From: Myxosarcina sp. GI1
GTDB lineage: Bacteria > Cyanobacteriota > Cyanobacteriia > Cyanobacteriales > Xenococcaceae
Length of the DNA: 64,000 nucleotides
Direction: 5' to 3'
Assembly (NCBI RefSeq): GCF_000756305.1
Contig: NZ_JRFE01000014.1
Span: 463,006 to 527,005 of the forward strand
Made by a program: the position numbers and the translations under genes. The stretch's first letter is position 1. Each line of letters begins with the position of its first letter. Below, in pieces: positions 47,329 to 64,000 of this stretch. The notes beneath the pieces were generated by a model. It was not told where the DNA came from. It did not search any database and saw only the letters and a program-made list of their open reading frames with translations.

Positions 47329-47543
47329 TAAAATTTTATTGAAGTTAATTAATTAAAAACTATTAATCGCTACGCAATAGAATATATAGCTTAATACCCA
47401 AAGCTAGAAGGCAAGCAGAACTGTCGATTGCCACACTGAATGTCGTCTTGACAAATAGTTTGTCTTCTCCTGTCAATCTCTAAAAACCTCAATTAGAAAA
47501 GATTATAAGCTTTTTTATGGCGGTCAAGTGTCTAAAGTCATGG

Positions 47544-47591
47544 TTGACAAATTGATTGTCCGATCTTCAACATTTGACAAATTGATTGTCC
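47544..47591 (+). mobile_element. Candidate transposon end: two TnsB-like sites
   Basis: TTGACAAATTGATTGTCC occurs twice, at 47544-47561 and 47574-47591, with a 30-bp period. From memory, the left end of the Scytonema hofmannii type V-K element has TGACAAATT..(T)GTC-type TnsB sites, which read inward from the end. By that rule an element would extend to the right, toward the tnsB gene at 60391. No TGTACA-like terminus or target duplication was recognised. The rest of 47224-47769 carries only the purine operator and HIP1 sites. Confidence 0.5.
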
Positions 47592-47769
47592 AAATTCACA
47601 AACAGGGTAAAAATCATAAGAGGATAAGTTTAGAGTATCTCAATAATATTTGCATCGATCGCGATATTTTGTTTCAAAAGAATAGCGATCGCTCGTTGTA
47701 ACCAATAATAATCGGGAACTTGTAGCGATCGCTAGATGAAAATCAAATATTACTGATGCTCGCGTTAAA

Positions 47770-48834
47770 TTAGGCAGCGTCTAAATCTGTATTACGAGAG
47801 ATCGAGTTTCTAACTGCATCGAGATCGACAAATCGATCTGCTAAAAGCTGCAATCTATTACTGACAGAGTCTCGCGAAGCAATAACTGTTACCTCCACAT
47901 CACGTTGCTTGATTTCTTCGATGAGAGGATAAAAGTCACCGTCGCCACTGATTAAAATAAGGCGATCGCCTGGTTTGACTTCTTTTAAAATATCGATACA
48001 GATTTGGAGATCGTCACCAACGGTTTTAAAGGCACCTTCTGGACGAGGGACTCTAGGCAAACAAGTAACTCGATAATTTAGATTTCGTAAGTGAGAATGC
48101 AGTTCGATGTTTTTACTTTGGGGACAAACGCCATCATAAAAATTGAGTTTGATTTTGCCGTTGGATGGCATCAAATATGCTTTTAAAGCTCTATAGTTTA
48201 TTTTTGTGTTATGGGTAGAGCATTTAAAATTGTTGCCATCAAAGTAAGCATGAGTAGTTGGCTGTTCGTCAATTAAAATTTTGGTTATTTTTTGAGACTT
48301 AGATGAAGAATAAGATTTATTGTTTGATTTTTGCTTTTTTACATTGTCTTTTTCGAGCTTTTTTACTCGATGCTCTTGTCTATCTAACTGCGATCGCATA
48401 TTAGTTTGCTGTTTTTCTTGCGCTTTAAGCTGCTGCTTATTTTTATCGATCGCTTTGAAGTGTTTTTCTAGTTTAGTTTCAATTTGCTGCGATCGCTTGG
48501 AAAAATTTTCTATTGCTGCCGTATAGCTATCTGATGTACCGACGCGACCTTCAAGTTCTTGATATTTGTTATCAAGTTCATTTTTAGTATTCTCAAGCGA
48601 TCGCGATGTGTTGTCAATTTTTTCATATACATTGTTTTGCCAATTGGCGAACTCATTTTTTGTAGTAAAGCGATCGAGTTTTTCATCTATTGCCTGTTGT
48701 TTGACTATGCAAGTAAAAAGCAGTGTACCAATGCTCAAATCTTTCATTGATGAATTTTGAGTAACTGCACCTGAAATAAAGAATGTTCCAGCAAGGGCAA
48801 AGATAACGTTAGTAATAAATTTAGTAGTTTTCAT
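47770..48834 (-). CDS. Membrane-anchored coiled-coil NYN (PIN-like) protein
   Basis: From the ATG at 48834 the protein has about 354 residues. A hydrophobic N-terminus (MKTTKFITNVIFALAGTFFI) could be a membrane anchor, residues about 65-170 form a long coiled coil, and a basic Ser/Lys linker follows. The C-terminal NYN domain contains HAYFDGNNFKC, NFYDGVC and RLILISGDGDFYPLIEEIKQRDVEVTVIAS, with the acidic residues of a PIN-like RNase. The frame continues upstream to 48915. It lies next to the CRISPR arrays and is read away from them. Confidence 0.85.
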   Translation of the reverse strand: MKTTKFITNVIFALAGTFFISGAVTQNSSMKDLSIGTLLFTCIVKQQAIDEKLDRFTTKNEFANWQNNVYEKIDNTSRSLENTKNELDNKYQELEGRVGTSDSYTAAIENFSKRSQQIETKLEKHFKAIDKNKQQLKAQEKQQTNMRSQLDRQEHRVKKLEKDNVKKQKSNNKSYSSSKSQKITKILIDEQPTTHAYFDGNNFKCSTHNTKINYRALKAYLMPSNGKIKLNFYDGVCPQSKNIELHSHLRNLNYRVTCLPRVPRPEGAFKTVGDDLQICIDILKEVKPGDRLILISGDGDFYPLIEEIKQRDVEVTVIASRDSVSNRLQLLADRFVDLDAVRNSISRNTDLDAA

Positions 48835-49182
48835 AGTAGTTAGTGAATAGAGAATAGGGAATAGAAAAGCAATAGAGTGATATTTCGCTTTAGCTTCTTT
48901 CATTTCCTTCTGCATACAAATGTAACCGACTTGTCTTTGACAAACTACCTAATGAAAATATTCACTCTAAAAAAATATCTCTATAAAAATCCATTCTCTA
49001 CAATGCTTTGAGTTTTTGTTATACGTATTACTCAATATTTTCTTTTTTTGTTTACTTCACACAAAAAAAGCGATCGCTTTTTGAGCGGCGATCGACATCT
49101 TTAAAATAACGATGAATGGTGAACGATTAATGCGGAATTAAAGACAAAAATTCATTATTCCTAATTCATCATTGATTACTTC

Positions 49183-49300
49183 GTTTCTATTCAATTGAGT
49201 TCTCCTTAGAAGAGAAATTGCAAAGTACACCTAACAGCAATAAAAGGTTATTATGACTACTCAAGTTTCCATTCAATTAGGTTCTCCGTAGAGGAGAAAC
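49183..49300 (-). CRISPR. CRISPR array A (two repeats, reads left)
   Basis: Two 36-bp repeats (49183-49218 and 49265-49300) enclose one 46-bp spacer. They are inverted relative to array B. Read on the minus strand they begin GTTTCTCC...GGAGAACC and end TTGAATGGAAAC. The outer copy is degenerate (ends ATTTC and ATAGAAAC), which marks the distal end. The leader should thus lie to the right, in 49301-49623. Confidence 0.88.
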
Positions 49301-49623
49301 TCTTTATCCGAACAAAATAAAGAAGAAAGTTTATGTCATCTTTCTCAAGTAAAAACTTGGGGTGTCGGTAATGAGCTTACAAAACCTCCTACTTCGATAA
49401 TTGTTTGATTTTTTGATGGATTTATTTTTATTGAATGAAAAATTTGCGAGGGATAGCCAAAATCGCGGTAACTATATTAGTCTCGTTCTGAGCCTCGATA
49501 TATTACTGTATAAGGCTTTAGAGATTTTGAAAATTGGAAAATCGCTTATTACAGATTCCTGTTTTTCTGAGCCTCGCAAACCTTTTCTCGACATCAGACC
49601 AGATCTGGGTTTCAATGGAGGGA
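49301..49623. promoter_or_regulatory. Shared central region between two divergent arrays
   Basis: This 323-bp AT-rich stretch lies between arrays that read outward, so it should hold the leaders and promoters for both. TTCTGAGCCTCG occurs twice here (about 49486-49497 and 49564-49575), 78 bp apart. An 89-codon frame in the region runs into repeat 1 of array B and is not believable as a gene. The spacer to the left (48835-49182) holds only HIP1 sites and A/T runs. Confidence 0.6.
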
Positions 49624-49913
49624 GTTTCTCTTTTATAGAGAACCTAATTGAATGGAAACTTGACCGATAAAGCTATTTTTTGCCTGTACTTTTTTTAGGT
49701 AAGCATCGTTTCTCTTTTATAGAGAACCTAATTGAATGGAAACACCCTGACGTTTAGCCCAGATTGCCTGAATGGGTGAGCGCTCGGGGTCTACGAAGTT
49801 TCTCTTTTATAGAGAACCTAATTGAATGGAAACTTGATTTTGATATTGTTGTTGTTGACTCATTTTCTTTTGCCTATGTTCCTCTTTTATAGAGAGCCTA
49901 ATTGAATGGAAAC
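49624..49913 (+). CRISPR. CRISPR array B (four repeats, reads right)
   Basis: Four 36-bp repeats start at 49624, 49708, 49798 and 49878 and enclose spacers of 48, 54 and 44 bp. The first three are identical; the last has GTTCC and AGAGAGCC changes, marking the distal end. The repeat has a TCTCT-TTTAT-AGAGA hairpin near its start and ends TTGAATGGAAAC. In array A the stem is TCTCC/GGAGA, a compensatory change. Uneven, long spacers suit type I-D or III-like cyanobacterial loci. Confidence 0.93.
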
Positions 49914-50018
49914 TAAGTATTTAATGATGAATACGGAAATGATTTAAAACTCCTAATTCATCATTCATACTTTATCGTTATCAAAAATTATTATCTAATC
50001 AATTTACAGACAATAGTT

Positions 50019-50372
50019 ATGAACAATTCCTTAATGGTAATCTTTCCCTATAGATTGCATGACACCTGGGTTTTTGATGACTCGGCAGTAGGTTTACAGC
50101 AAGAACCCTTTGTTAACGGTATACCAGAAATTATCGATCTTTTAGTTGAAAACAAAAATATTGCCAATGCCGAACAAGGCTTTAAACTAATATTTTCTCA
50201 AACTCCCTTTCCTGGCTGCGACTTAGAATTAGATTGGCGGTCAGAAGAATACGGTGGCAACTGGTATTACTGCCAACAATACGATCGCGAAGGTTGGTTG
50301 TGTCCTGCTTTGTTTAAATACTTCGATCGCGCCCCGCAAAAAATTTACTGTCAGGCAGAAGCGGTTAAATAA
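50019..50372 (+). CDS. DUF6717-like protein
   Basis: The 117-residue protein begins MNNSLMVIFPYRLHDTWVFD and contains GLQQEPFVNGIPEIIDLLVE, then FPGCDLELDWRSEEYGGNWYY and EGWLCPALFKYFDRAPQKIY. This matches my memory of the DUF6717 family, small proteins of unknown function. It has no CRISPR signature. It lies between array B and cas1 on the opposite strand to cas1, so it was probably included by chance. Confidence 0.75.
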   Translation: MNNSLMVIFPYRLHDTWVFDDSAVGLQQEPFVNGIPEIIDLLVENKNIANAEQGFKLIFSQTPFPGCDLELDWRSEEYGGNWYYCQQYDREGWLCPALFKYFDRAPQKIYCQAEAVK

Positions 50373-50472
50373 ATTATGAATAAAGAACGATGAATCAGAA
50401 TTAAAAACAAAATTCATCATTCATAGTTCATATTTCATTAATAATAAAAATGTCTATTCTATTCCCTACTCC

Positions 50473-51474
50473 CTACCTAATCGAATAAGGACGATAAAGC
50501 TGCGTTGGTTGATAGACAAACTGCTTGTATAACCTCACCTGCTGCATCAAAATATGCCATCGAGGTTGATTTTCACCCAAATTGGTTTGTACTTCTTCTT
50601 CCATACGCTGAATAAAAGCTTTTAGATATTTCTTGCGTCCAGAATTGTTGAGATAGCAACCGCCATCATGATAGGTAAAGTCATCTTCAACTTTCATTAT
50701 TCTACGATTAACTAAGTACAAAACTAAAGAATCGACAATTGGGGCGCGAAACTCTTCGATTAAATCTGAAGCTAAAGCAGCGTGGCGATCGCTTGCCCGA
50801 TGCAAACAAGCCTGATAGGGATCGAGTTGCTGTAGTTCAATGATGGCTAAAAGATGATTCCACAACACCTGATAGCCAAAACTCAACATCGCATTGACGG
50901 GATTTCCAGGGGGGCGACGGCGACGGGCGACAAACACAAAATCAGAATTTGTAATAGTTTCGCCATAAGCAGAAAAATAATTAGCTGCTGCTGCACCCTC
51001 ACAACCAATAAGTCGTTCGAGACTTTCTACACGACCTGCTTTAGAAATCAGATATTCTAAGTTCAGTATAGTTTGGGCTACAGTTGCCGATTCTCGTTTT
51101 CGTTGCTGTCTTTGTAGCCAAACACGACTATTTTTATTTTTAAGCTTACCAATGACTATTTCTCTGGCTACTGCCAATCTTTCAGCAAATGATAGCTGTT
51201 GTTGATAGCGAGATAGCTGGCGGTATCCTCTGGCTAAAGGTAAAATTCGCCCGTAACAATAACCCATACGAGAGAGATAGACAATCGGAATATCTTGCCG
51301 AATACAAGCTTTAATTGCTTGTGTAGTTACTTGCGAGTTGCCAAAAACTAATATCTGTTCGATTAACGGTATCTGGATCTCCTGCAAAATATTCTGCTTG
51401 CGCTTAACTATCAAAGTCTCTTTATTTAGATAAACGTAACAGCCTTGTTGGGAAATATAGAGACTTTTCCTCAA
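50473..51474 (-). CDS. cas1: CRISPR-associated integrase Cas1
   Basis: The 333-residue protein has the N-terminal beta domain (SLYISQQGCYVYLNKETLIV, then IPIVYLSRMGYCYGRI) and the helical catalytic domain. The metal-binding residues are in place: Glu in RLIGCEGAAAANYF, His in CLHRASDRHAALASDL and Glu in IEEFRAPIVDSLV. It integrates new spacers. The TTG start overlaps the csx18 TGA (TTGA), which implies coupling. No cas2, cas6 or effector gene is in the window. Confidence 0.94.
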   Translation of the reverse strand: MRKSLYISQQGCYVYLNKETLIVKRKQNILQEIQIPLIEQILVFGNSQVTTQAIKACIRQDIPIVYLSRMGYCYGRILPLARGYRQLSRYQQQLSFAERLAVAREIVIGKLKNKNSRVWLQRQQRKRESATVAQTILNLEYLISKAGRVESLERLIGCEGAAAANYFSAYGETITNSDFVFVARRRRPPGNPVNAMLSFGYQVLWNHLLAIIELQQLDPYQACLHRASDRHAALASDLIEEFRAPIVDSLVLYLVNRRIMKVEDDFTYHDGGCYLNNSGRKKYLKAFIQRMEEEVQTNLGENQPRWHILMQQVRLYKQFVYQPTQLYRPYSIR

Positions 51475-51758
51475 TAAATTCTTTTTTGTATCTCAGAGGA
51501 ACGTTGTGTATGGCTTAAATCGTTATCAAAGTGAGGTGCAGAAAATCTATTTTGGCGTGACGGAGATATCGACAGCCAAGAGACAACCATATCGGCAAAA
51601 ACACCGACAAAAAAGCTAGCTACAGTTACAAAAAAAGTGTTGCCGACTACCGCAGCTAAACCTAAAGGTGCAATTAATAATAAAGTTAGAGTAATCGCTC
51701 CGTTGGTAATAGCAGTCGCCAAATTTCTTACTACGGCAGCACGAGTTGATATATACAT
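51471..51758 (-). CDS. csx18: Csx18-like CRISPR-associated membrane protein
   Basis: The 95-residue protein begins MYISTRAAVVRNLATAITNG and has two hydrophobic segments (about residues 18-38 and 42-65, LLIAPLGLAAVVGNTFFVTV and FFVGVFADMVVSWL), then a polar tail. This is the pattern I know as Csx18, found in cyanobacteria next to cas1. Its role is unknown. It is upstream of cas1 and overlaps it by 4 bp. Confidence 0.8.
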   Translation of the reverse strand: MYISTRAAVVRNLATAITNGAITLTLLLIAPLGLAAVVGNTFFVTVASFFVGVFADMVVSWLSISPSRQNRFSAPHFDNDLSHTQRSSEIQKRIY

Positions 51759-51982
51759 GAATAAAAGTTTTTATAGTTAAATACAGCACTAATTTAGCCA
51801 GTTTTTCAAAGCTTTTCTCGTAAATCCCGATATTTACTCAAGCAATAATTTAAAACCCAAACTTATAATTAGACTTGGTTATTGTTACTAGAGAGCCAAA
51901 TTTAACAAATATTTTCTTTCAATTGACTCAAAAAAAATCTCCTGAAGATCTAAGATCGAGGATTGAAAATTCTCTGTCCCTC

Positions 51983-52009
51983 ATTCCCCATTCCCCATTC
52001 CCCATTCCC
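51983..52009. repeat. Heptamer repeats at the WYL gene start
   Basis: Four CATTCCC-type heptamers end six bases before the ATG of the WYL regulator, in the place where a ribosome-binding site should be. Copy number changes would alter the leader. Such short tandem repeats are common in cyanobacterial spacers. Confidence 0.7.
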
Positions 52010-52014
52010 AAAAA

Positions 52015-53178
52015 ATGAACCTCTCTCCAAAAATAAACCGCTATGATAGTCCACAGTCTTTAGAAAGATTGTTACTGCTAATTACTACTTTGATTAAATA
52101 TCCTGGTATTGGTTGTGCCGACCCAGATCGTACTCTTAACGGCAAACATCACAACGCTTTAGAGTTGGTTCGAGACAAACTAAGAGAAATAGCTGCATCG
52201 CTACAAATTGAGCTACCAGATAATTATCCTGCAATACCGACTATTCGCAAAGATTTAGAATTACTTAAAGACTATGAAATTTTAGATCGTAGAATGTATC
52301 GCTGGGGTTATTACTTGGGTACGGGAGTAATGAATAAGCGAGAACTAAAAGCGGCTTTTAACGCTCTAGAGTCTCAGGCAATATATCAGGGAGATCCCGA
52401 ACTGAGGAAAATTTATCACACACTTAAGCGCAGAATGAAAGGGTTTGAGTTTGGCGATCGCCAAGACTTTTTTTATCCCGTCAGACAACACCTCAACCGC
52501 GCCATCAACTATACCGATCCTCAAGAAATGATGAAAAAGGGAAAATATCAACACACCTTATTTCATCAAATAGAAACACTCGAAAATGCCATTATCAAAG
52601 GACAGGCGATCGAGCTTTTTCGCGATCGCGATCCCTATCAGCAAGAGCAACTTGGATTTGTCTCTGTCTACCCTTTACAGCTAATTTATTACGATATTGC
52701 CTGGTATTTAATTTATGAAGACTATCGCGATTGCACTTTATCGGTAGAAAGAATCGATCGCTTTAAAGACCATCTCAAGATTATTACCTCTGAAGGTAGA
52801 AACGTTAGCGAACAAAAAACCAGTCTCGACAATGCTCACAAGCTTCTAAAAAATGGTTGGGGATTATATTTGGGCAATGCCGAGGAGCAACAACGAGAAT
52901 TACAGGGAAAACTAGATTTACTCGATTTTAAAGTACGTTTCTATCCTCCCGTAAACAGATTTATAGCGGAAGGTGAGCTACGACATCCACGACAGAGTAT
53001 AAAAAAACACAAGGAAGAATATCTAGATTATTCAGTCAAATTACCACCGCGATCGCTCAAAGAGTTCGGCATTTGGGTCAATAAATATCTCGACTGCGCT
53101 ATGGTCTTATCTCCTCCCAAACTAGTTGAAGAACATCGTAATAAGGCTTTAGCTTTAGCAAAAAGATATGGTTTTTAA
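52015..53178 (+). CDS. WYL-domain transcriptional regulator
   Basis: The 387-residue protein has an N-terminal winged-helix-like part (about residues 10-120, IPTIRKDLELLKDYEILDRRMYRWGYY) and a WYL domain (about 215-300) with PLQLIYYDIAWYLIYEDYRDC, followed by a WCX-type C-terminal region (VRFYPPVNRFIAEGELRHPRQS). WYL regulators near cas genes control CRISPR expression, often in response to nucleic-acid ligands. It is divergent from csx18-cas1. Confidence 0.88.
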   Translation: MNLSPKINRYDSPQSLERLLLLITTLIKYPGIGCADPDRTLNGKHHNALELVRDKLREIAASLQIELPDNYPAIPTIRKDLELLKDYEILDRRMYRWGYYLGTGVMNKRELKAAFNALESQAIYQGDPELRKIYHTLKRRMKGFEFGDRQDFFYPVRQHLNRAINYTDPQEMMKKGKYQHTLFHQIETLENAIIKGQAIELFRDRDPYQQEQLGFVSVYPLQLIYYDIAWYLIYEDYRDCTLSVERIDRFKDHLKIITSEGRNVSEQKTSLDNAHKLLKNGWGLYLGNAEEQQRELQGKLDLLDFKVRFYPPVNRFIAEGELRHPRQSIKKHKEEYLDYSVKLPPRSLKEFGIWVNKYLDCAMVLSPPKLVEEHRNKALALAKRYGF

Positions 53179-53229
53179 AAGGAATAGGGAAAATAGGGAA
53201 CAGGGAATGGGGAATAGAAAATAATAATC

Positions 53230-56200
53230 CTAGCAAAGTTCTACCCGCAAATTCGATCCTAGTTGTGACTTTTGAACTTTAATTTGGGTAAATTGCTCGG
53301 CTAAGGCTGGAATATGAGTAATTACACCAATTAAACGATCTTGCTGTCGCAAAGATTCTAGTGTGCGCGTAACTATATCTAATGTCTCGCGATCGAGCGT
53401 TCCAAAACCTTCGTCTAAGAAAAGACAACCAATTTCAGCACCCATCGATAATTTTTCGGATAAGGAGAGAGCCATTGACAGAGAAGCGGCAAAAGTTTCC
53501 CCTCCTGATAGAGTCCGAATTCCGCGCATTTCGCCAGCATTCCAATTATCTTCAACGCGATATTCTCCATTTTCTATTTTTAAAGCGTAACGAGAATCAG
53601 TTAAATCCTGTAAAAGCACGGTGGCACGAGTTACTAACTCTCTTTCTAAATGCTCTAGGATAAATGCCTGAAAATGGTTGGTTTGAAGATCGCGAGCTAA
53701 AGTTTGATAGATGTGTTCTTGCTGTTTGACTTGTTGCTGGCGTTCTAGCAAGTCTTGACTTTGCTGCTGTTTGGTGGCTGCATTTTTTAGCCAAATTTCT
53801 AATTCTATTTTTTGTTCTCGTGATTCTTCTAATTTTTTCTCTGCTAGTTGTTTGGCTTCGCGTCTCTTAGTTAAACTAGCTTCATCAGTAGTGCGATCGC
53901 CAATATTATCTTTAATTTCTCGAACACGGCTGGTTGCTTCAATTTTTTGCTGTGTGTAAGATGCGATCTCTTTTTGCCATTCTTGTTGTTTGGTTTCAGT
54001 TACTAGTGCTTCTTTAAAGCTAATTTCAGTGAAGCTGTTATCGGCAAGTGCAACTTGCCATTGGGTTTCTAAATGCTCTTGTTGAGATTTTGTGTGAGCA
54101 AAGTTTTCATTGGAATTATTGTATGTAGTTTCTGCTTGAGTAAAGTGATTTTGCGCTTGGTTAAATTTAGCATCCGTTTCTTGCTTTTGCATTTTCCACT
54201 GATTTTTATCTCTTTCTAGCTCATGCTTGAGACTATCGTAAGTCTTACCATTGGTAACTTGATGAAGCTTATCTTGAATTTCAACAAGTAGTTGCTGACG
54301 ATACTCTACTTCTGCATTTGCTGCATCCAATTCTTCACGAGCAGTTTCTATATTGTTCTGACAAAATTCTAAACTTTGCTCTGAACGCTCTAATTCTGCT
54401 TCAACCTTCTGTTTTTGAATCAATGCTTGCTGATAAGCTTTGTTTTGCTCTGAAAGACGTTTTTGCTCTTGTTTGAGAGCCTTGCTATCCCATACTTCGG
54501 CTTTTAAAATATCTGCGATCTGATTTTGAAACTTGGATAATTCTATTTGAGCTATTTTAAGCTCTTGCTGCAAGCTCGTTTCCTGTTTTTGTAGCGACTC
54601 TAGGCGCGTTATAATTTGAGTCAAAGTAGTTTGAGCTTGTTGGCAATTTTGACGAGTATTGTTAACGAACTTCTCTAAAGGTTTGAGTTCGATAATTTCG
54701 GCATCGGTTAAGAATGGCAGCAAATGAGCTTCGGGATATTTACCACCACAAACAGGACAGTCATCACCTGGATATAGTGCAGTGCGTAAAATAGCTGCAT
54801 GGTTTTTTCGAGCGAAGCGATCGTTGCTAGCTTTCGCCTCTTCTAAACTTAACTCAGCCTCTTGTAACTTTACCTCAATAACTTCTAATTGTTCTAATGA
54901 TGAAGTATGTTCGGACTGTAATTGTTGTTTTTCCTTAACAGTTCGATCTAGCTTTTCGCGGACTGTTTGCTCTTGACGAACAGCAGTTTCCCATTGAGGT
55001 ATCAGGGGAACTACCATATCTAAAATTTCTAAACGAGAAGTATCTGGAGATGTTTGAGCAAGAGTATTATTAACTGTCTCTAGTTTTTTTTGAGCTTTGG
55101 TTACTGTTTCTCGTACCTGTCTAACTTCAACTTCTCGCTCTTGGCACTGCTTTGTCTTTTGCTGTAGTTTATTTTGTGCTTGGCTGAATTCTATTTTGGC
55201 TTGTCCCTCTTGTTGGCTATAGGCTTCAGCAGTTGCTAAATTTTGGCTTCTTCGGTCGAATTGAGCTTCTTTTTCACTAGCAATAGCTTGAAGGCAATCG
55301 CGGTTTTCTTGCTGTGTTTTCAATTCACTCTTGGCACGAGCTAATTTGTCAGTAGCATCCTGTAAATTATCTGACGTTTTGGTAAATCGCTGCCGAATAT
55401 CTCGAACCCTATCCCAATCAGACTTAAGCCGATTTGCAGCTTGAGCTATTTTAAGTTTTTGTTTTAGCTTCTCGATTTCGGTTTCTTTGAGGTTTATCTG
55501 GGCTAAATTTTGCTGTAATTTCTCTAAGCGTCGAATTTGCTCTAATAATTTTTCTTCTTCTTCTAAAAGTTTGCCCGCGATCGCAACTTCTTCTGTCAAT
55601 TGTGGAAGGTTTTGCTCTAATGTTTCAAGCTCGGTTTGGTTGGTTGTTATTTCTGCATCTGTGGGTAATTCTAGTCCTTCAATTTTTCCATTAATCTCGG
55701 CTAGTTTTATTTGAGCATTCTTGACGCGATCGCTGGCACGTTGACGCATTTCCTCGAAAATATTGAGTCCTCCCAAGTTTCGTAAAATTTCACGGCGTTT
55801 TGCTGCGCTTCCTTTGAGAAACTCATCGAACTGTCCTTGAGGAAGTACAATTACTCGCGTAAAGGTATCGAAGTCCATACCCAGAATATCTTCTACCGAG
55901 CGATCGCAACGTTGCCACTGTCCTTGTTCGAGGTGATCGAGTAAAAAATTTGTCTTGGTTCCGCTACGACGATCTTTCCAAGAACGAGTGATTTTATACT
56001 CTGTTTGCTTAAGTTGAAATTGAAACGAAACCTTTAAGCTTTGTTCGCCTTGACTGACTAATTCTGGAATATCTGCTTTGCGTGTAACTTTACCAGGTAC
56101 TTTTTCGTAAAGAGCGTAAGTTATAGCATCGAGTAAAGAAGATTTCCCTGCTCCTGTAGCTCCAGTAATGGCAAACAGATCTAGTTCGGTAAAGTCTAAT

Positions 56201-56256
56201 TCTTGCTTAGTACGAAAACTGGTAAATCCTTCAACGGTTAGTTTAATTGGACGCAT
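53230..56256 (-). CDS. sbcC: SbcC (Rad50-like) exonuclease subunit
   Basis: The 1,008-residue ATPase has Walker A in ITGATGAGKSSLLDAITYALYE, two long coiled coils (about 170-470 and 520-830), the zinc hook CPVCGGKYPEAHL at about 500, the ABC signature RTLSGGETFAASLSMALSLSE and Walker B in CLFLDEGFGTLD. It works with SbcD on DNA ends and hairpins. It overlaps sbcD by 14 bp and is last in the nurA-herA-sbcD-sbcC run. Confidence 0.95.
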   Translation of the reverse strand: MRPIKLTVEGFTSFRTKQELDFTELDLFAITGATGAGKSSLLDAITYALYEKVPGKVTRKADIPELVSQGEQSLKVSFQFQLKQTEYKITRSWKDRRSGTKTNFLLDHLEQGQWQRCDRSVEDILGMDFDTFTRVIVLPQGQFDEFLKGSAAKRREILRNLGGLNIFEEMRQRASDRVKNAQIKLAEINGKIEGLELPTDAEITTNQTELETLEQNLPQLTEEVAIAGKLLEEEEKLLEQIRRLEKLQQNLAQINLKETEIEKLKQKLKIAQAANRLKSDWDRVRDIRQRFTKTSDNLQDATDKLARAKSELKTQQENRDCLQAIASEKEAQFDRRSQNLATAEAYSQQEGQAKIEFSQAQNKLQQKTKQCQEREVEVRQVRETVTKAQKKLETVNNTLAQTSPDTSRLEILDMVVPLIPQWETAVRQEQTVREKLDRTVKEKQQLQSEHTSSLEQLEVIEVKLQEAELSLEEAKASNDRFARKNHAAILRTALYPGDDCPVCGGKYPEAHLLPFLTDAEIIELKPLEKFVNNTRQNCQQAQTTLTQIITRLESLQKQETSLQQELKIAQIELSKFQNQIADILKAEVWDSKALKQEQKRLSEQNKAYQQALIQKQKVEAELERSEQSLEFCQNNIETAREELDAANAEVEYRQQLLVEIQDKLHQVTNGKTYDSLKHELERDKNQWKMQKQETDAKFNQAQNHFTQAETTYNNSNENFAHTKSQQEHLETQWQVALADNSFTEISFKEALVTETKQQEWQKEIASYTQQKIEATSRVREIKDNIGDRTTDEASLTKRREAKQLAEKKLEESREQKIELEIWLKNAATKQQQSQDLLERQQQVKQQEHIYQTLARDLQTNHFQAFILEHLERELVTRATVLLQDLTDSRYALKIENGEYRVEDNWNAGEMRGIRTLSGGETFAASLSMALSLSEKLSMGAEIGCLFLDEGFGTLDRETLDIVTRTLESLRQQDRLIGVITHIPALAEQFTQIKVQKSQLGSNLRVELC

Positions 56257-57413
56257 CGCTTAACTCCTGATACAAATCATTAAATGCCCGTTTTACAGCA
56301 GGTTCGAGATTTTTTGCCGACTGCTCTTGGTAATAGCGAGCGAATTCTTCGGTGGGATTGAAAGTCTGATAATCGATTGATTCGGTTTGTCTTTCTACTG
56401 CCGTTTTGGTGTATTTCGGTTGAATAATTAAGGTTTGAGGACAAATTCGGCGCACGCGATCGCCTAACCCCATTTGCTGGGTTTCCATTTCGACAATAAC
56501 TTTGAGATAGCCAGGATGTTGCCGATGCGCTGTCAAGATTTCATCTAAATTATTTTCGTTACAGTACAAAACTTTTAGAGGTTTATGGCAGGGAATTACT
56601 TTAAATTCGACTTTGGCAGGGCGATTGGGTTCGACGGTAACTAAATTAAAACCTTTTTCTTCTTCTGCTTCACCAAAATCGACCTGAATGAGCGAACCCG
56701 AATAGTAAGTGGGAGCGGCATTAGGAATTTGTTGCGGTTTGTGGATATGCCCTAAAGCTACATACTGAGCGACTGAAGGAATCGACCCTTCGGAAAGACT
56801 GTAAGCACCTTTCGTGTAGAAATCGACTTCTGAATGGGAAAGTTTGGCACTCTGTACGGTTAAATGCGCCATTATTACATTGACGCAGTTTTCTTCAAAG
56901 CTTTGAACTAATTGCTCGAATAGGTAACTAACAACTTTTTTGTAGTTTTGCTGTTGTTGTGAATCGCTTTTTTCCCAAAGTTCTTCAGCTTTGAGCAAAC
57001 GACGCTCTGAAGCAAAGGGCATAGCAGCTACACAAAGTCTCCCGTTACGAGTATCTAGCTTAATAACCCCTCCCTGACTAGCTTTGCAAGGTCTTCCTAA
57101 AGCGCGAACTCCAACATGAGCCACAAGTTTAGCTATACCATCGATGCGGTTGGCAGAGTCATGATTACCTGCAATAACTACGGCAGGAATGTTGGCTTCT
57201 TTATAGTTGACAAAAAAAGTTGTAAGCAACCTGTTCGGCATCGGCGGTTGGGCTGGGAGTTTCAAAAATATCTCCTGCAACTAAAACCGCATCGACTTCT
57301 AAATCTTTTGCTTGTTCTAATAATTGGTCAAGTGCAAATTTTATTTCAGGAGTGCGATCGACTCCTCTAAGTTTTCTGCCTAAATGCCAGTCGGAAGTAT
57401 GAATGAGACGCAT
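56243..57413 (-). pseudogene. sbcD: SbcD (Mre11-like) nuclease, frameshifted
   Basis: Two overlapping frames make one SbcD of about 389 residues. The first has IHTSDWHLGRKLRG and VLVAGDIFETPSPTADAEQV; the second continues IPAVVIAGNHDSANRI, MAHLTVQSAKLSHSEV and VALGHIHKPQQIP, so all metal-binding motifs are encoded. The break is at a run of seven A on the plus strand (57212-57218). With six the frame reads YNFFVNYKEANIPAV without a gap. It is either a sequencing error, a recent mutation or a slippage site. Confidence 0.9.
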
Positions 57414-57440
57414 AAAAAATTGTTAATAGCAAAAATGTAA

Positions 57441-59183
57441 TTAAAAACGATCGAGGTCAGCTTCTATTTCGGCAATTTCTGCTTGAGAAAGACTGACTTC
57501 ACTTTGACGAGTCGCATAAGCAGGAAAAGGAAAATTCACTAATAACGGTGCGGGAACTTCAGGCTGATGAATAAACATACTTCCCGACTTTAATAAAAGC
57601 GATCGCTTGCGACAGGCTTCCGTAAGAAAGTTATACTCTGGTCTTTCTGCCTCAGCAGAATCTAATCTGCCAACGACGCGAATTGAAGCTTGTCCGACAA
57701 CTCTTCGTTCTACCTCTGAAGCCGTTTGCTGTGCGCCAACCAGAATGATTCCCAAAGAACGTCCTCGTTCGGCAATTTCTACCAACAAATTTTTAATCGG
57801 ACTGCGTCCTTCACGGGGAGCATATTTATTGAGTTCATCTAAGACGATAAAGACAATAGGGTCTTGTCCTCGTTTTTCTTTCTCGGTAAAAAGCTTTTGC
57901 AACAGTATGCTAACGACAAACTTTTGGGCTTTTCCGCCTAGTTTGTTGATGTCTACGACTGAAAGTTGATATGCTGCATCGAGAGGATCGAGTCGGCAAT
58001 CTGCCATGTCTTTGGGCGATAAATCTCCCCGAATTAAATGACTCATTTCGCTTTTGATTCCCCAAAGCCGACGAATTAAAGCTTCAGCCGTAGCACCTGC
58101 ATTGCGTCCGAGCCAACTTCTGTCCTCGACTTCCAATAACTTGTACTCTAGAAAATCAATTAGATCGCTAAAAGTTTCAATATTTAGCTTGTTGTTATTT
58201 CCATAAGCTTCATCAGCAACTAAATTAGTCCCTGATTCGCGATTGTTTTTTCGATCCTCTTTATCATTATCCAGTGCTAATTTAGCTAGTTTTTCGGTAA
58301 CTCCAGCCACTAAAAATCCTAAATTTCCTCTTTCTAAATCCTCACCTGCAAACAAAAAACTAAACAGGCGATCGCGGCATAATTCTCGTAGACTCCAAAG
58401 ATAAACTTTAATATCGTCTTGTCTTCGATCCAAATGAGGTGAAAGATCGGGAGAAAATTTACGCGGTGCGGCACAGAAACGAGCATCCTTAAAAGGTTCT
58501 ATAGGAATCCCTAAAGTCTGATAATCATTACGAGCCTCATCTTTCAGACAGCTATTTGCTTTATCTAGAAAAAATAAATCCTCTCCTTTAACGTTAAAAA
58601 TTAAGGCTTTAGTATTGGCTTTACGATTGCCTAAAGCCGCAGAATTAAAAATAGCATGAAGTAAAAAAAGTGCGTACGAAGTTTTGGTAGCTACACCAGA
58701 AACGCCTGAAATATTTATATGTGCGCCTTTTTCGCCGTTAATAAACTCGAAATTTAAATAGGCAGGTCGTCCATTTCGCATCAATCCAGCAGGAATTGGT
58801 TTTTCCATGCCATCGAAATACAAAGCTTTCTTCAAGTCTTCGTTTTCAGCTAAATATACCGTATCTCCTGGTTGTGGCGGTAGATATTCTTCTGGTTCGA
58901 TACGAGTTACTCGAACGTGAGCGGCATAAGAAATATTTACGGGTAAGCGTCCTTGAGTAACTAAAAACGTATCGGTATCAAACTGCGTACCTTCATAAAG
59001 AGTGCGAACATAATCCACTACTCCATAAAAATGAATAATTTTATTTGGCTCGCCAGGACGATAAGTTTGTAGTTCGATCGCGTCATCAAGTCTGAGTACG
59101 CGATTGGGAATAACAGCAACCCAAAATTCTAAAGGGGTTGATTCTTGAGTACCGAGAACGTATCCGACAGATGTTTTAGTCAT
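57441..59183 (-). CDS. herA: HerA-like ATPase/helicase
   Basis: The 580-residue protein has an N-terminal HAS barrel (TSVGYVLGTQESTPLEFWVA) and a FtsK/HerA motor. The P-loop region reads ISGVSGVATKTSYALFLL, in which Thr-Lys-Thr replaces the usual Gly-Lys-Ser/Thr, a form I recall from cyanobacterial homologues. Walker B is FIVLDELNKYAP, and IILVGAQQTASEVERRVVGQ follows. HerA pumps DNA ends into NurA during end resection. It is 21 bp from nurA and 27 bp from sbcD. Confidence 0.88.
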   Translation of the reverse strand: MTKTSVGYVLGTQESTPLEFWVAVIPNRVLRLDDAIELQTYRPGEPNKIIHFYGVVDYVRTLYEGTQFDTDTFLVTQGRLPVNISYAAHVRVTRIEPEEYLPPQPGDTVYLAENEDLKKALYFDGMEKPIPAGLMRNGRPAYLNFEFINGEKGAHINISGVSGVATKTSYALFLLHAIFNSAALGNRKANTKALIFNVKGEDLFFLDKANSCLKDEARNDYQTLGIPIEPFKDARFCAAPRKFSPDLSPHLDRRQDDIKVYLWSLRELCRDRLFSFLFAGEDLERGNLGFLVAGVTEKLAKLALDNDKEDRKNNRESGTNLVADEAYGNNNKLNIETFSDLIDFLEYKLLEVEDRSWLGRNAGATAEALIRRLWGIKSEMSHLIRGDLSPKDMADCRLDPLDAAYQLSVVDINKLGGKAQKFVVSILLQKLFTEKEKRGQDPIVFIVLDELNKYAPREGRSPIKNLLVEIAERGRSLGIILVGAQQTASEVERRVVGQASIRVVGRLDSAEAERPEYNFLTEACRKRSLLLKSGSMFIHQPEVPAPLLVNFPFPAYATRQSEVSLSQAEIAEIEADLDRF

Positions 59184-59204
59184 AGAAAAATCGATAATAG
59201 TAAA

Positions 59205-60218
59205 TTAATCAATCAAAAAATTACGTAGGCGACGCTCGATCGTTTTGCGATCGCCCATATATCTGCCTAATTGCTTTTCCAATCCCGATACTGGAGTAAG
59301 GTTTTGGGGAGCGCGAGGATCGCGAACGGGATGGGAAGCATATTGAGGAATGAGTACGGTACTAAGATTGGCGATCTCTATAGCTTTTTCTATGGGAACT
59401 TCACTATACAAATCCAGACGAACAATGCCATGTAAATCGTGATAGCCAAGTTTTTTGGGAACGATATTTTGTTCTCCAGAACGCAAGTACCAACTCCAAT
59501 GGGATTTAAACTTTTCTGGTTTGCCTACTGCAAAAATAGGTGTACGTTCGCCTAGCCCTAAATGCCAAAGTATTGATGCTGCATCTTCTGTAAGATATTG
59601 CCGACCCATCGTTTTGACATAACCGAGCGTTAACCCAGGAGATTTATAAGAGCCATACAACAAAGGTCCATCGCGAATAACTAGTATGTCAGGATGATTA
59701 TATTTTTCGGCTAATCTTGCTTCAGCTTTTAGCATTGCTTTTTGTATTGAAGAAAGAGCAGCTTGAGGACTATTTTCGGTGCAGTTCAAACAAAGATCGT
59801 AGGTAAGAGTTGCCTGACTGCCAAAAGGACAAGGAATATGAGTAACGGGAGAAGTTAGATCTCCACAAAGCGCGATCGCTCGCTGTACAATAGGTTCAAC
59901 ACAGGTAGCGCGGCAAGCGAGGCGATCGACTGCTACTGCACCTACAGCTAAAGTAGCAAAAGCACCATAGAGAACTTCGTTGTCTTTGCGTCCCAAAAAT
60001 CGAGAATCCAGACGAAGGCGACCGTCGATGAAGAGAATTTTGTCTGGTATTTTTGCAAATTTATCTAACTAAATGGCTGTCCATTCATGGGTTTCTACGG
60101 TGAGATCGATCCGTTCGGGCTGTGTACATTCTAGATTAGTCAGATTAATCGGACTGTCATATTCGGTCGCCCAAGGTTCTACACGAATTCGATAATTACT
60201 CCAGAAATTTTCAGACAT
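59205..60218 (-). pseudogene. nurA: NurA nuclease with an in-frame stop codon
   Basis: The full frame from ATG 60218 would give 337 residues. It starts MSENFWSNYRIRVEPWATEY and reads HEWTAI before a TAG at 60069-60071 (codon 50), then LDKFAKIPDKILFIDGRLRL. The Asp of FIDGR (codon 65) is the expected first metal ligand. A restart at TTG 59996 would lose it, while the rest (VRLDLYSEVPI, IPQYASHPVRDPRAPQN) is intact. Without read-through the nuclease should be inactive. Confidence 0.85.
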
Positions 60219-60330
60219 TAATCTTCAAATACTAGCTCTGTTGAATATTTTGAAGCCGCAAGTGATATCTACTAACTAATTACCTTAACTTTTGCTTAAC
60301 TCAAAATAACAGCGAAAGATTACGCAAATC

Positions 60331-60405
60331 TGTTGACAATAGCTATCGTCTATAAAATAATAACATAATGTTTTTATTTAACAATTTAAGTTGACGAACG
60401 ACAAA
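60331..60405 (+). mobile_element. Candidate left end next to tnsB
   Basis: TGTTGACAATAGCTATCGTC begins at 60331, and TAACAATTTAAGTTGAC (60379-60395) and GACGAACGACAA follow up to the start of tnsB. The first part is a near palindrome, GAC.ATAGCTAT.GTC. This is where left ends of V-K elements normally lie, but the sites fit the TnsB motif less well than those at 47.54 kb. It might also be an operator of the transposition genes. Confidence 0.35.
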
Positions 60406-62105
60406 AATAGCGATCGCTATATAATTCCAACAGAGTTTGATGAAGAAATTAAGCGCAAAATGGAAATCATTGAGAGCTTGATGGAACCCTGTAATCGCAA
60501 GACTTACAGCAAGAAACTCAAAAAAGCAGCAAAGAAGCTTGGTAAATCCAAAAAAACAGTACAAAGACTAGTCCAAAGATGGAAAGAGGAGGGAATAGCA
60601 GGATTAAAAACTGGCGAAAGAAATGATAAAGGTCAACACCGCATATCTCAAGAGTGGCAGGACTTTATCTTTAATACCTTTCGGGAAGGAAATAAAGGTA
60701 GTAGAAAAATGTCTCGCAAGCAAGTAGCGGTGAGAGTTAAAAATAAGGCACAAGAATTAGGTGTAAAAAAATACCCGAATTGCCGAACTGTATATCGCGT
60801 ATTGCAACCCTTAATCGAAGCTCGAGAATCCAAACCCAAGATTCGTTCTGTAGGCTGGCGAGGCTCTAGTCTATCAGTCAAAACTCGCGACGGAAACTAC
60901 ATTGGTGTGGAATACAGCAATCACGTTTGGCAGTGCGACCATACAAAGGTGGATATTCTGCTGGTCGATAAATTTGGAGATTTGGTGGATCGCCCTTGGC
61001 TAACTACTGTTATAGATACTTATTCGCGTTGTATTATTGGCATTCGTTTGGGTTTTGATGCACCTAGTTCTCCAGTAGTAGCTTTGGCTTTGCGTCATGC
61101 GATATTGCCTAAAAATTATAGTCCTGAATATGGTCTTAATTGTGAGTGGGGAACTTATGGAAAGCCAGAATACTTTTTTACAGATGGAGGTAAAGATTTT
61201 CGTTCCAATCATTTGAGGCAGATTGGAGTTCAGTTAGGCTTTACTTGCGAACTGAGAAATCGCCCTTCAGAAGGCGGTATCGTAGAGCGTCCTTTTGGAA
61301 CCTTTAATACTGAATTGTTTTCTACTCTTCCTGGCTATACAGGTTCCAATGTCCAAGAACGTCCCAAAGAAGCCGAAAAAGATGCCTGTCTGACTCTAAG
61401 AGAATTAGAAAAATTATTCGTTCGCTATATCGTCGATAACTACAATCAAAGAATCGACGCTAGATTGGGCGACCAAACTCGATATCAACGTTGGGAAGCA
61501 GGATTATTATCTACTCCTCATTTGATGAGCGATCGCGAATTGGATATTTGTCTGATGAAGCAATCAACTCCGTTGATTCGACGTTGCTCCGCAACGGCGG
61601 ATTGCCAAAGGCAATCAATCGTTCTATCTATCGAGATGGCTATATTCGCTTCGAGAATTTAATTTACAAAGGCGAAAATTTAGCTGGTTATGCTGGAGAG
61701 CAAATAGCTTTACGTTACGATCCCAGCGATATTACTCAAGTTCTAGTTTATCGAAGAGAGCAGGGAAAAGATATCTTTCTAGCTAGAGCTTTTGCTCAAG
61801 ATTTAGAAACTGAAACACTATCCCTAGAAGATATTAAAGCTACTAACAAAAAAATTCGCGACAAAGGTAAATCCATAAGCAATCACTCGATTTTGGAAGA
61901 AGTTAAAGAGCGAGATCTTTTTGTTGCCAAGAAAACAACCAAAAAAGAGAAACGCAAGCAAGAGCAATTTGAGTTCGATGAAGGCAAAGTTTCAACTCGG
62001 GTAATTGAAACAGAATCAGAGATTGAAGAAACAACCACGTACGTAGAACCAGAACCAGTGGAAATTTTGGATTACGAAGACGCAATGGACGAATTTGGAT
62101 GGTAA
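60391..62105 (+). pseudogene. tnsB: TnsB transposase of a type V-K CAST, interrupted
   Basis: The two frames together cover a TnsB of about 570 residues, close to that of the S. hofmannii CAST. The first (TTG start, to about 61566) has the HTH KKLGKSKKTVQRLVQRWKEEG and the complete DDE core: VWQCDHTKVDILLVD, FFTDGGKDFRSNHL and RPSEGGIVERPF. The second resumes at 61620 with RSIYRDGYIRFENLIYKGEN and keeps the C-terminal barrel and tail. A 53-bp sequence stands where one codon is expected, shifting the frame. The transposase should be inactive unless rescued. Confidence 0.9.
61567..61619 (+). repeat. 53-bp palindromic insertion inside tnsB
   Basis: The inserted stretch contains two hairpins, CGTTGC-TCC-GCAACG and GATTGCC-AAA-GGCAATC. 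GCAATCAA occurs at both edges (61560-61567 and 61611-61618), like a target duplication. Neither reading frame through it encodes residues known from TnsB; homologues read MKQSRR here. It is similar in style to other palindromes in the window. Confidence 0.8.
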
Positions 62106-62107
62106 CT

Positions 62108-63007
62108 ATGGCTAAATCTAATGAAGATCGAGACGATTACAAAGAAGAAAATAGTCGGTATAAAAACTCAAGTGACAAAGATCAAGCTCAAGAATATGCG
62201 GATGATTTGGGAAAAATAGAACTCCCAAACGAGTCTATCCAAAAAGAAATCGCTCGACTGAGATGTAAAAATATTGTTCTACTGCAACAGGTTGAACATT
62301 TACATAATTGGTTGGAAGGAAAAAGAAAATCCCGTCAGTCTTGTCGTATTGTGGGGGAATCTCGTACTGGTAAAACTATCGCTTGTGAGTCATACAAATT
62401 GAGACACAAGCCAAAACAAGAAACAGGAAAACCGCCAATTGTCCCTGTAATCAATATTCAACCCCCTCAAGAATGTGGTTCGAGAGATTTGTTTGCTCTA
62501 ATTATTGAACATTTAAAGTACAAGGTTGTCAAAGGAACAGTCGGAGAAATTAGAAATAGAACTCTAAAAGTTTTGGAAAGATGCCAGGTTGAAATGCTAA
62601 TTATTGACGAAGCAGACCGCCTAAGACCAAAAACTTTTGCTGATGTTAGAGACATTTTCGATAATTTAGGGATTTCTGTAGTTTTAGTGGGAACAGATCG
62701 TTTGGACGCAGTAGTGAAGCGAGACGAACAAGTTCACAATCGTTTTCGAGCTTGTCATCGCTTTGGCAAATTATCTGGGGTTGAATTTCAAAAGACAGTA
62801 ACTCTTTGGGAAAGGAACGTTTTGAAACTTCCTGTAGCCTCGAACCTGAGTAGTAAAGCTATGCTCAAAGTTTTAGCACCAGCAACTGGGGGTTATATTG
62901 GTTTGCTAGATATGATTCTGCGAGAGTCTGCTGTTAGAGCTTTAGAAAAAGGTTTGAAGAAAATCGATCTAGCAACTTTGAAAGAGGTAGCGGGAGAGTA
63001 TAAGTAA
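62108..63007 (+). CDS. tnsC: TnsC AAA+ regulator of a type V-K CAST
   Basis: The protein of about 299 residues resembles the CAST TnsC along its length. It has a charged N-terminus, then LLQQVEHLHNWLEGKRKSRQ, Walker A GESRTGKT, Walker B EMLIIDEADRLRPKTFADVR and the sensor VVLVGTDRLDAVVKRDEQV. TnsC forms filaments on DNA and couples TniQ/Cas12k target choice to TnsB. The ATG at 62108 follows the tnsB stop by 2 bp; an ATG at 62099 overlaps it. It is intact. Confidence 0.94.
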   Translation: MAKSNEDRDDYKEENSRYKNSSDKDQAQEYADDLGKIELPNESIQKEIARLRCKNIVLLQQVEHLHNWLEGKRKSRQSCRIVGESRTGKTIACESYKLRHKPKQETGKPPIVPVINIQPPQECGSRDLFALIIEHLKYKVVKGTVGEIRNRTLKVLERCQVEMLIIDEADRLRPKTFADVRDIFDNLGISVVLVGTDRLDAVVKRDEQVHNRFRACHRFGKLSGVEFQKTVTLWERNVLKLPVASNLSSKAMLKVLAPATGGYIGLLDMILRESAVRALEKGLKKIDLATLKEVAGEYK

Positions 63008-63504
63008 TGGCAGAACTTCAGTCTTGGCTGTTTCAATTGGAACCTTATGAGGGAGAAAGTCTCAGCCATTTTTTGGGTAGATTTCGACGAGAGAATAATT
63101 TTACTACTTCTGTTTTAGGTCAAGAAGCAGGAATTGGTGCAGTAATTTCACGCTGGGAAAGACTTTATCACAATCCTTTTCCACCCCAGGAAGATTTAAA
63201 AGCACTAGCTAAAGTTGTTAAAGTAGACGTTAATCGCTTGAGAAAGATGCTACCACCAAAAGGTATTGGTATGAAGCATCAGCCAATTCGCCTCTGTGCA
63301 GCTTGTTATGTTGAATCACCTTGTCATCGCATTGAATGGCAGTTTAAGCAGACAGACAGATGTGAGAAACATCAGCTTAGGTTGTTATCGGAGTGTCCTA
63401 ATTGTAAAGCTAAATTTTCTATTCCTGCTTTATGGGCAAATGGCTGGTGCAGCAGGTGTTTTTTGACTTTTGCTGAAATGGTGCAGTATCAAAAATCTGT
63501 TTAA
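63007..63504 (+). CDS. tniQ: TniQ target-selection protein of a type V-K CAST
   Basis: The 165-residue protein is the short TniQ form of V-K elements (about 167 residues in S. hofmannii). WLFQLEPYEGESLSHFLGRFRREN is the N-terminal signature, ISRWERLYHNPFPP follows, and two zinc fingers are seen (CAACYVESPCH, then CEKHQ, CPNC and CSRC). It bridges Cas12k and TnsC. Its first base is the last base of the tnsC stop, so the genes are coupled. It is intact. Confidence 0.94.
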   Translation: MAELQSWLFQLEPYEGESLSHFLGRFRRENNFTTSVLGQEAGIGAVISRWERLYHNPFPPQEDLKALAKVVKVDVNRLRKMLPPKGIGMKHQPIRLCAACYVESPCHRIEWQFKQTDRCEKHQLRLLSECPNCKAKFSIPALWANGWCSRCFLTFAEMVQYQKSV

Positions 63505-63546: not shown

Positions 63547-64000
63547 TTATTTTTTTGTTCGATAGGCTTGTTCGGGATGACTTGGTTTGTCGGGGTATCT
63601 TAATTCTATAAGTCCTTCTTCTACCATCTTTTTAAGAAATCGAGTTCTAAGCGTAGAATTAGTGCGATCGAGTATTACTTCTAATTGTTGCAGGGTTAAA
63701 AATCTCTCTTTGCACACCTCTAAAATAGCTTGTCGCATTACATCTGCTGAAACTTTTCTTTTCTCTCTGACAGGTCTTGCGATCGCCTTTAGTTTTTCCA
63801 AATCATCAGAGTTTTCACTTAAATGATCGGAGTTAACTGGCAAATGATCGGAGTTAACTGGCAAATGATCGGAGTTAACTGGCAAATGATCGGAGCTACT
63901 TACAGAAACTTGAATATTTTGATTCAATAGTAATGCTTTAGAAATATCTAAAGTGGGCAAACAATAGTAAGTGCCACGACCATGACCGTATTTTTGCAAC
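63547..64000 (-). CDS. C-terminal part of an AlbA_2-type ATP-binding protein (partial)
   Basis: The visible 150 residues start YGHGRGTYYCLP, the end of the GHKL-like part found in AlbA_2/RecG-like putative transcription regulators. A repeated linker, SDHLPVN three times, comes next, then a winged helix with KVSADVMRQAILEVCKERFLTLQQLEVILDRTNSTLR and the end LIELRYPDKPSHPEQAYRTKK. The start lies beyond 64000. It converges on tniQ and may be cargo. Confidence 0.8.
   Translation of the reverse strand, partial: LQKYGHGRGTYYCLPTLDISKALLLNQNIQVSVSSSDHLPVNSDHLPVNSDHLPVNSDHLSENSDDLEKLKAIARPVREKRKVSADVMRQAILEVCKERFLTLQQLEVILDRTNSTLRTRFLKKMVEEGLIELRYPDKPSHPEQAYRTKK
63821..63895. repeat. 21-bp tandem repeats within a linker
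   Basis: AAATGATCGGAGTTAACTGG plus C occurs three times in a row (63821, 63842, 63863) with a partial fourth copy. Each unit encodes SDHLPVN on the minus strand, so copy number changes keep the frame. Confidence 0.9.

Follow-up and report, generated by a model that had tools for sequence, protein, structure and literature searches.

Does the cluster of transposition genes near the end of this 64,000-nucleotide stretch of DNA (the window) belong to a CRISPR-associated transposon, and can that transposon still move or bind its targets? The window corresponds to C14:463006-527005 of a genome of 7.07 Mb in 76 contigs. The genes at 60391-63504 form the transposition module only; the full element is about nine times longer, running for about 27-27.5 kb from a right end at window position 47422 to a left end at C14:537888, with most of it inside the window. 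We regard it as nearly certain that this element is a type V-K CRISPR-associated (Tn7-like) transposon that no longer functions. The wider account, of a dead V-K element inserted at tRNA-Asn with a split right end and a fused homing guide, is in our judgement probable. It is built on features legible in the DNA itself: the identity of the module, both ends, the match between anchor and protospacer, the lesions in tnsB and cas12k, the split right end and the doubled tracrRNA.

A broken transposition module and a broken cas12k

In phmmer searches of the PDB, the best solved relatives of all three products are the ShCAST proteins, with E-values of 4e-182 for TnsB against ShTnsB (residues 8-399), 1.6e-116 for TnsC against ShTnsC and 4e-72 for TniQ against ShTniQ. 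The gene order, tnsB, tnsC and a short tniQ, is likewise that of ShCAST, as expected of a V-K CAST. The tnsC gene (62099..63007, forward strand, 302 aa, TniB at 121.6 bits) and tniQ (63007..63504, forward strand, 165 aa, the short V-K form) are intact. The initial annotation had described the three genes as V-K-like, with tnsB interrupted and the other two whole, and both the open reading frames and the phmmer matches agree with it.

The tnsB gene (60391..62105, forward strand) is a frameshifted pseudogene, with a main frame at 60391-61662 and an out-of-frame remainder reaching 62105. The frame is lost after ...DICLMKQ, and the Mu-transpos_C domain resumes in a different frame. The break coincides with a segment of about 50 bp (61568..61617, forward strand), part of which has matches of 78-100% elsewhere in the genome, at two places on C12 and one each on C35 and C4; its 25-bp core has no further copies at up to three mismatches, only looser or shorter relatives. 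Because part of the segment recurs at these four places, insertion of a dispersed repeat, rather than a base-calling error or an assembly slip, is the most likely cause of the break, as far as the sequence allows. The closest TnsB found (82.5%, G014:C279) comes from a truncated gene that has likewise received short repeat inserts.

Beyond tniQ, the cargo begins with an ATP-binding (HATPase_c_4) protein with a Fic-like C-terminal part, encoded on the reverse strand from 63547..64000 and on past the window to L009:13063. Fragments of type I hsdS and hsdM follow, and at L009:16978-19800 (reverse strand) there is a MerR-HsdR fusion of the CvkR-HsdR form. About 8 kb past the window lies cas12k (L020:13927-15912, forward strand; L020 positions become window coordinates on adding 57994), which scores 842 bits on NF038191 (cut-off 150), identifying it as a V-K Cas12k, and is a pseudogene. 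It carries a frameshift in its start region, an in-frame TAG at L020:14638-14640 and an in-frame insertion of about 33 extra codons; an error in one base might account for the lone TAG. Downstream are a first tracrRNA (L020:15955-16159), a V-K CRISPR repeat (L020:16365-16401), a second tracrRNA with a truncated repeat and the anchor spacer (L020:16532-16810), the left end with three TnsB sites (L020:16823-16889) and a tRNA-Asn gene (L020:16913-16984, reverse strand). The array is nearly gone.

Cas12k and tracrRNA, which the initial annotation had proposed to seek past 64 kb, lie 8-11 kb beyond the window, as do the anchor crRNA, the left end and the tRNA gene. The lack of any Cas12k within about 20-30 kb, named there together with a complete Tn5053-type gene set as evidence against a V-K element, does not apply, even if the gene found is broken. 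A non-CRISPR, Tn5053-type transposon, suggested by the Pfam names TniB and TniQ, is hardly conceivable with Cas12k, tracrRNA, an anchor spacer and a tRNA-proximal left end all present, and with a TnsC that is about 62-75% identical to those of many elements from Cas12k-bearing genomes. Membership of Tn5053/Tn402 (tniA, tniB, tniQ, the serine resolvase gene tniR and no Cas12k) was rejected on the presence of Cas12k. In a tree, TnsC sits among sequences from genomes that mostly bear Cas12k; its exact place within the V-K sequences is not firm, 13 branches being open and the tree having no non-V-K outgroup. Two genomes, G132 and G148, have TnsC relatives and no Cas12k match. No TnsA match was obtained among the ORFs scanned between the element ends, small ORFs being covered in part.

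Since tnsB and cas12k are both broken, the element is dead: this copy cannot transpose alone, as the initial annotation had supposed from tnsB, and it probably cannot bind targets alone. The earlier suggestion that target binding could remain if Cas12k were intact is not supported in cis, given the frameshift, TAG and insertion in cas12k and an array reduced to one or two repeats. Recent inactivation, also suggested, is doubtful because tnsB, cas12k, hsdM and hsdS are all damaged.

Ends, target site and the probable cargo within the right end

The terminus TGTCGATTGCCACA (14 bp) is identical at window position 47422 and at C14:537888. At 47422..47591 (forward strand) it is followed by TnsB sites at 47448, 47544 and 47574, with a spacing that agrees with the right ends of other V-K elements, and we are fairly confident that this is the right end of the element. 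Immediately outside it, AGAAC (47417..47421) is a putative target-site duplication; the copy at the other end, AGGAC, agrees in four of five positions, so the duplication is imperfect and suggestive only.

In the anchor unit adjoining the left end, ...GAAAG precedes AATCGATTGGTTGTAGG, a spacer that agrees with tRNA-Asn at 16/17 positions; the protospacer has a GTT PAM, 60 bp from the left end. Both spacer and distance agree with the published rules of a 17-nt anchor spacer and a GTN PAM within 46-82 nt of the left end (PMC9938897). The element probably once inserted at this distance from the PAM in the tRNA-Asn gene, with its own anchor crRNA as guide. An empty site was not seen by way of flanking genes in 40 relatives, where the tRNA-Asn neighbourhood is conserved on one side only, because the left flank (permease, nucleoside hydrolase) does not stand beside tRNA-Asn in them.

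The left-end sequence recurs beside other tRNA genes in the source genome and in relatives. We considered whether the TGTCGATT terminus, recurring in this way, belongs to a foreign family of ends, and rejected this because the inspected copies, except that at L053, adjoin a tRNA or a tRNA-like 3' fragment, and past the copy in G006:C22 come tracrRNA and cas12k. At L053:5800-5900 (G003:C15) the V-K ends TGTACAGTAAC and TGTCGATTGAC abut, about 5 bp apart, in nested or tandem elements.

In other V-K elements with an end found, 206-372 bp separate the right end from tnsB, and additional sites are present, the last of them about 63 bp upstream of the gene; in the published V-K survey, too, tnsB adjoins the right end (PMC9938897). 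This layout, in which the right end is followed at once by tnsB, is usual though not demanded by the mechanism, and it does not hold here if 47422 is the right end: 12.7 kb of cargo separates TnsB sites 1-4 (47422-47591) from the tnsB promoter and the last site at 60334. The latter, a fifth TnsB-site-like sequence TTGACAATAGCTATCGTC (60334..60390, forward strand) overlapping the promoter, is the counterpart of the site at about 63 bp in other elements and is conserved in G014:C279.

The intervening block (47592..60333), annotated with Pfam, PADLOC and NCBIfam, encodes on the reverse strand an NYN protein (nuclease; 47770-48915), a solo cas1 (50473-51474), SbcC (53230-56256), an SbcD split into two overlapping frames of 345 and 70 aa (56243-57413), HerA (57441-59183) and a NurA-like protein (59205-60218), and on the forward strand DUF6717 (50019-50372) and a CARF/WYL-type regulator (52015-53178). 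The NurA-like gene, named from its sequence and neighbourhood with no family match, has an interrupted frame: an in-frame TAG near 60069 seems to divide it, and its N-terminus can be read from a 49-aa ORF upstream. A small, degenerate CRISPR remnant of GTTTCTCTTTTATAGAGAACCTAATTGAATGGAAAC, with one inverted copy, occupies 49261-49917; no cas2 or effector was recognised near this remnant and the solo cas1. In relatives of the same family the block is absent, patchy or scattered, and not syntenic. The cargo was probably acquired within the right end, at a point separating TnsB site 4 from site 5; an insertion there would disrupt neither the outer sites nor the tnsB promoter-operator.

The terminus at 47422 could instead stem from another, mostly lost V-K element, with 47592-60333 as ordinary chromosome and the true right end lost from beside tnsB. 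The imperfect duplication and the presence of other orphan left ends in this genome speak for such a neighbour. Against it, the terminus equals the left end over 14 bp, whereas the complete element on contig C24 has TGTAC ends; the site set at 47422 lacks a fifth site, exactly the one present before tnsB at 60334; the cargo block has a patchy distribution among relatives; and G014, the closest TnsB relative, has the same separation, its last site lying beside tnsB and sites 1-4 being absent within 4.7 kb of that gene. A lost neighbour is accordingly unlikely, retaining a minor share of weight because the duplication is imperfect and an empty site was not found.

Other V-K elements in the genome

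The second V-K element, on contig C24 (L013:3842-6813 and L025:5333-11776), lies at tRNA-Ala with an anchor spacer matching at 16/17 positions. Its tnsB, tnsC and cas12k are intact and a CvkR-like gene is present; its TniQ has lost 28 internal residues, some of them from the zinc-binding region, and its CRISPR/left-end region contains a maturase/HNH-type ORF, perhaps of a group II intron. A third cas12k, at C4:68008-68793 (L026), is degenerate: it contains two TAA codons and is accompanied by a fragment of a tracrRNA, and a tRNA-Phe lies about 1 kb away. Orphan V-K left ends at L048:10478 (C12) and L049:10402 (C10), 20-40 bp downstream of a tRNA-Ser gene and of a tRNA-like 3' fragment, read as footprints of lost elements. 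Elsewhere, in a related V-K element of a Prochloraceae MAG, tniQ is immediately followed by an open frame of 2494 aa (L014:6288-13772).

Trans action by the C24 element is possible, though the termini differ (TGTCGATT versus TGTAC). The window element would then be defective in cis only and still mobilised, and its whole TniQ might in turn complement the C24 protein lacking 28 residues. The open frames of C24 tnsB, tnsC and cas12k and the similarity of the internal TnsB sites in both elements fit such an exchange. Apart from the termini, the two TnsB proteins are only about 60% identical, there is no sign of movement and the number of lesions suggests long inactivity, making continued mobilisation improbable.

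The second tracrRNA and the anchor

The two tracrRNA copies after cas12k are 83% alike over 90 nt, and the second abuts the truncated repeat and anchor spacer; Rfam gave no tracrRNA model match. In a screen of 38 V-K elements, seven have two tracrRNAs, the second copy ending 19-53 nt before the anchor in every case. Three others (G006, G037 and G119) have a single tracrRNA, located at the anchor, and where a lone tracrRNA is unfused and the anchor was identified, as in 21 elements, the gap is 212-3289 nt. The tRNA matches are kept at 15-17/17. Both copies are conserved between genera, G014 and G047 each carrying an orthologue of copy 1 and another of copy 2, and a tracrRNA tree places second copies, with modest support, in at least two and probably three positions.

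Between tracrRNA and anchor, linker hairpins often abut the GAAAG handle, with sequences that differ among elements (stems AATTCTC/GAGAATT, AATCCATC/GATGGATT, AATCCGCTTT/AAAGTGGATT and AGTTTA/TAAACT). Upon shuffling, the stem has p<0.05 in four of ten fused elements (G036, G119, G136 and G151) and p of 0.05-0.35 in G104, G037, G014 and the window element (exact stem test, p=0.35 for the last), with no support in G006 and G047. The window RNA as a whole folds better than its shuffles (z -2.6).

These arrangements make it reasonably likely that tracrRNA 2, the truncated repeat and the anchor constitute a natural single-guide RNA for homing. A single transcript of all three parts would load Cas12k for homing, with tracrRNA 1 serving the CRISPR array. 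We lean slightly towards the broader proposal that several V-K lineages independently fused a second tracrRNA to a truncated repeat and anchor, giving a homing-dedicated guide, with G037 and G119 retaining the fused form only. The tandem copies might also be a neutral duplication with no guide role, as their presence in a pseudogene cluster and the weak linker stems of G006 and G047 could indicate. This we consider rather unlikely in view of the second copy lying directly at the anchor in 7/7 two-copy elements, the single tracrRNAs adjoining the anchor in G037 and G119, the retained tRNA matches, the orthologous copies in different genera and a tree suggesting more than one origin.

ShCAST (Tn7747, Scytonema hofmannii) shares the tnsB-tnsC-tniQ order, short TniQ, Cas12k, tracrRNA and tRNA homing; the window element differs in its broken tnsB and cas12k, cargo-split right end, TGTCGATT termini and second tracrRNA at the anchor. 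The V-K survey that includes AnCAST describes a MerR-type (CvkR-like) gene divergent from cas12k, MerR-HsdR (CvkR-HsdR) fusions in four elements, and a lone tracrRNA gene, the R*-anchor unit being separate from it (PMC9938897). The window element shares the MerR-type gene by cas12k, the MerR-HsdR fusion, the 17-nt anchor and the GTN PAM distance, and departs from these elements in having tnsB far from the right end and two tracrRNAs, the second joined to the anchor unit. For Cas9, a natural single-guide RNA (tracr-L) combines tracrRNA and guide part in one transcript and represses cas genes; the predicted V-K form joins the same parts and would instead direct transposon homing. A limited literature search returned no description of twin tracrRNAs or a natural single-guide RNA in V-K systems, and novelty is provisional. 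Ziemann 2025 reportedly treats a V-K tracrRNA subgroup, V2, and a 2021 preprint by Hsieh and Peters is said to treat truncated repeat-spacer units; both overlap with our subject and may already describe the fused guide.

Taken as a dead transposon alone, the element is ordinary. Its split right end points to the intervals between TnsB sites as places where cargo can be taken up, with implications for how CASTs acquire genes. If the fused-guide reading is true, the DNA of some V-K CASTs specifies a finished single-guide RNA to the home site, of the kind later engineered for ShCAST; such guides could explain how homing is separated from the array-guided pathway, and would supply natural linker designs.
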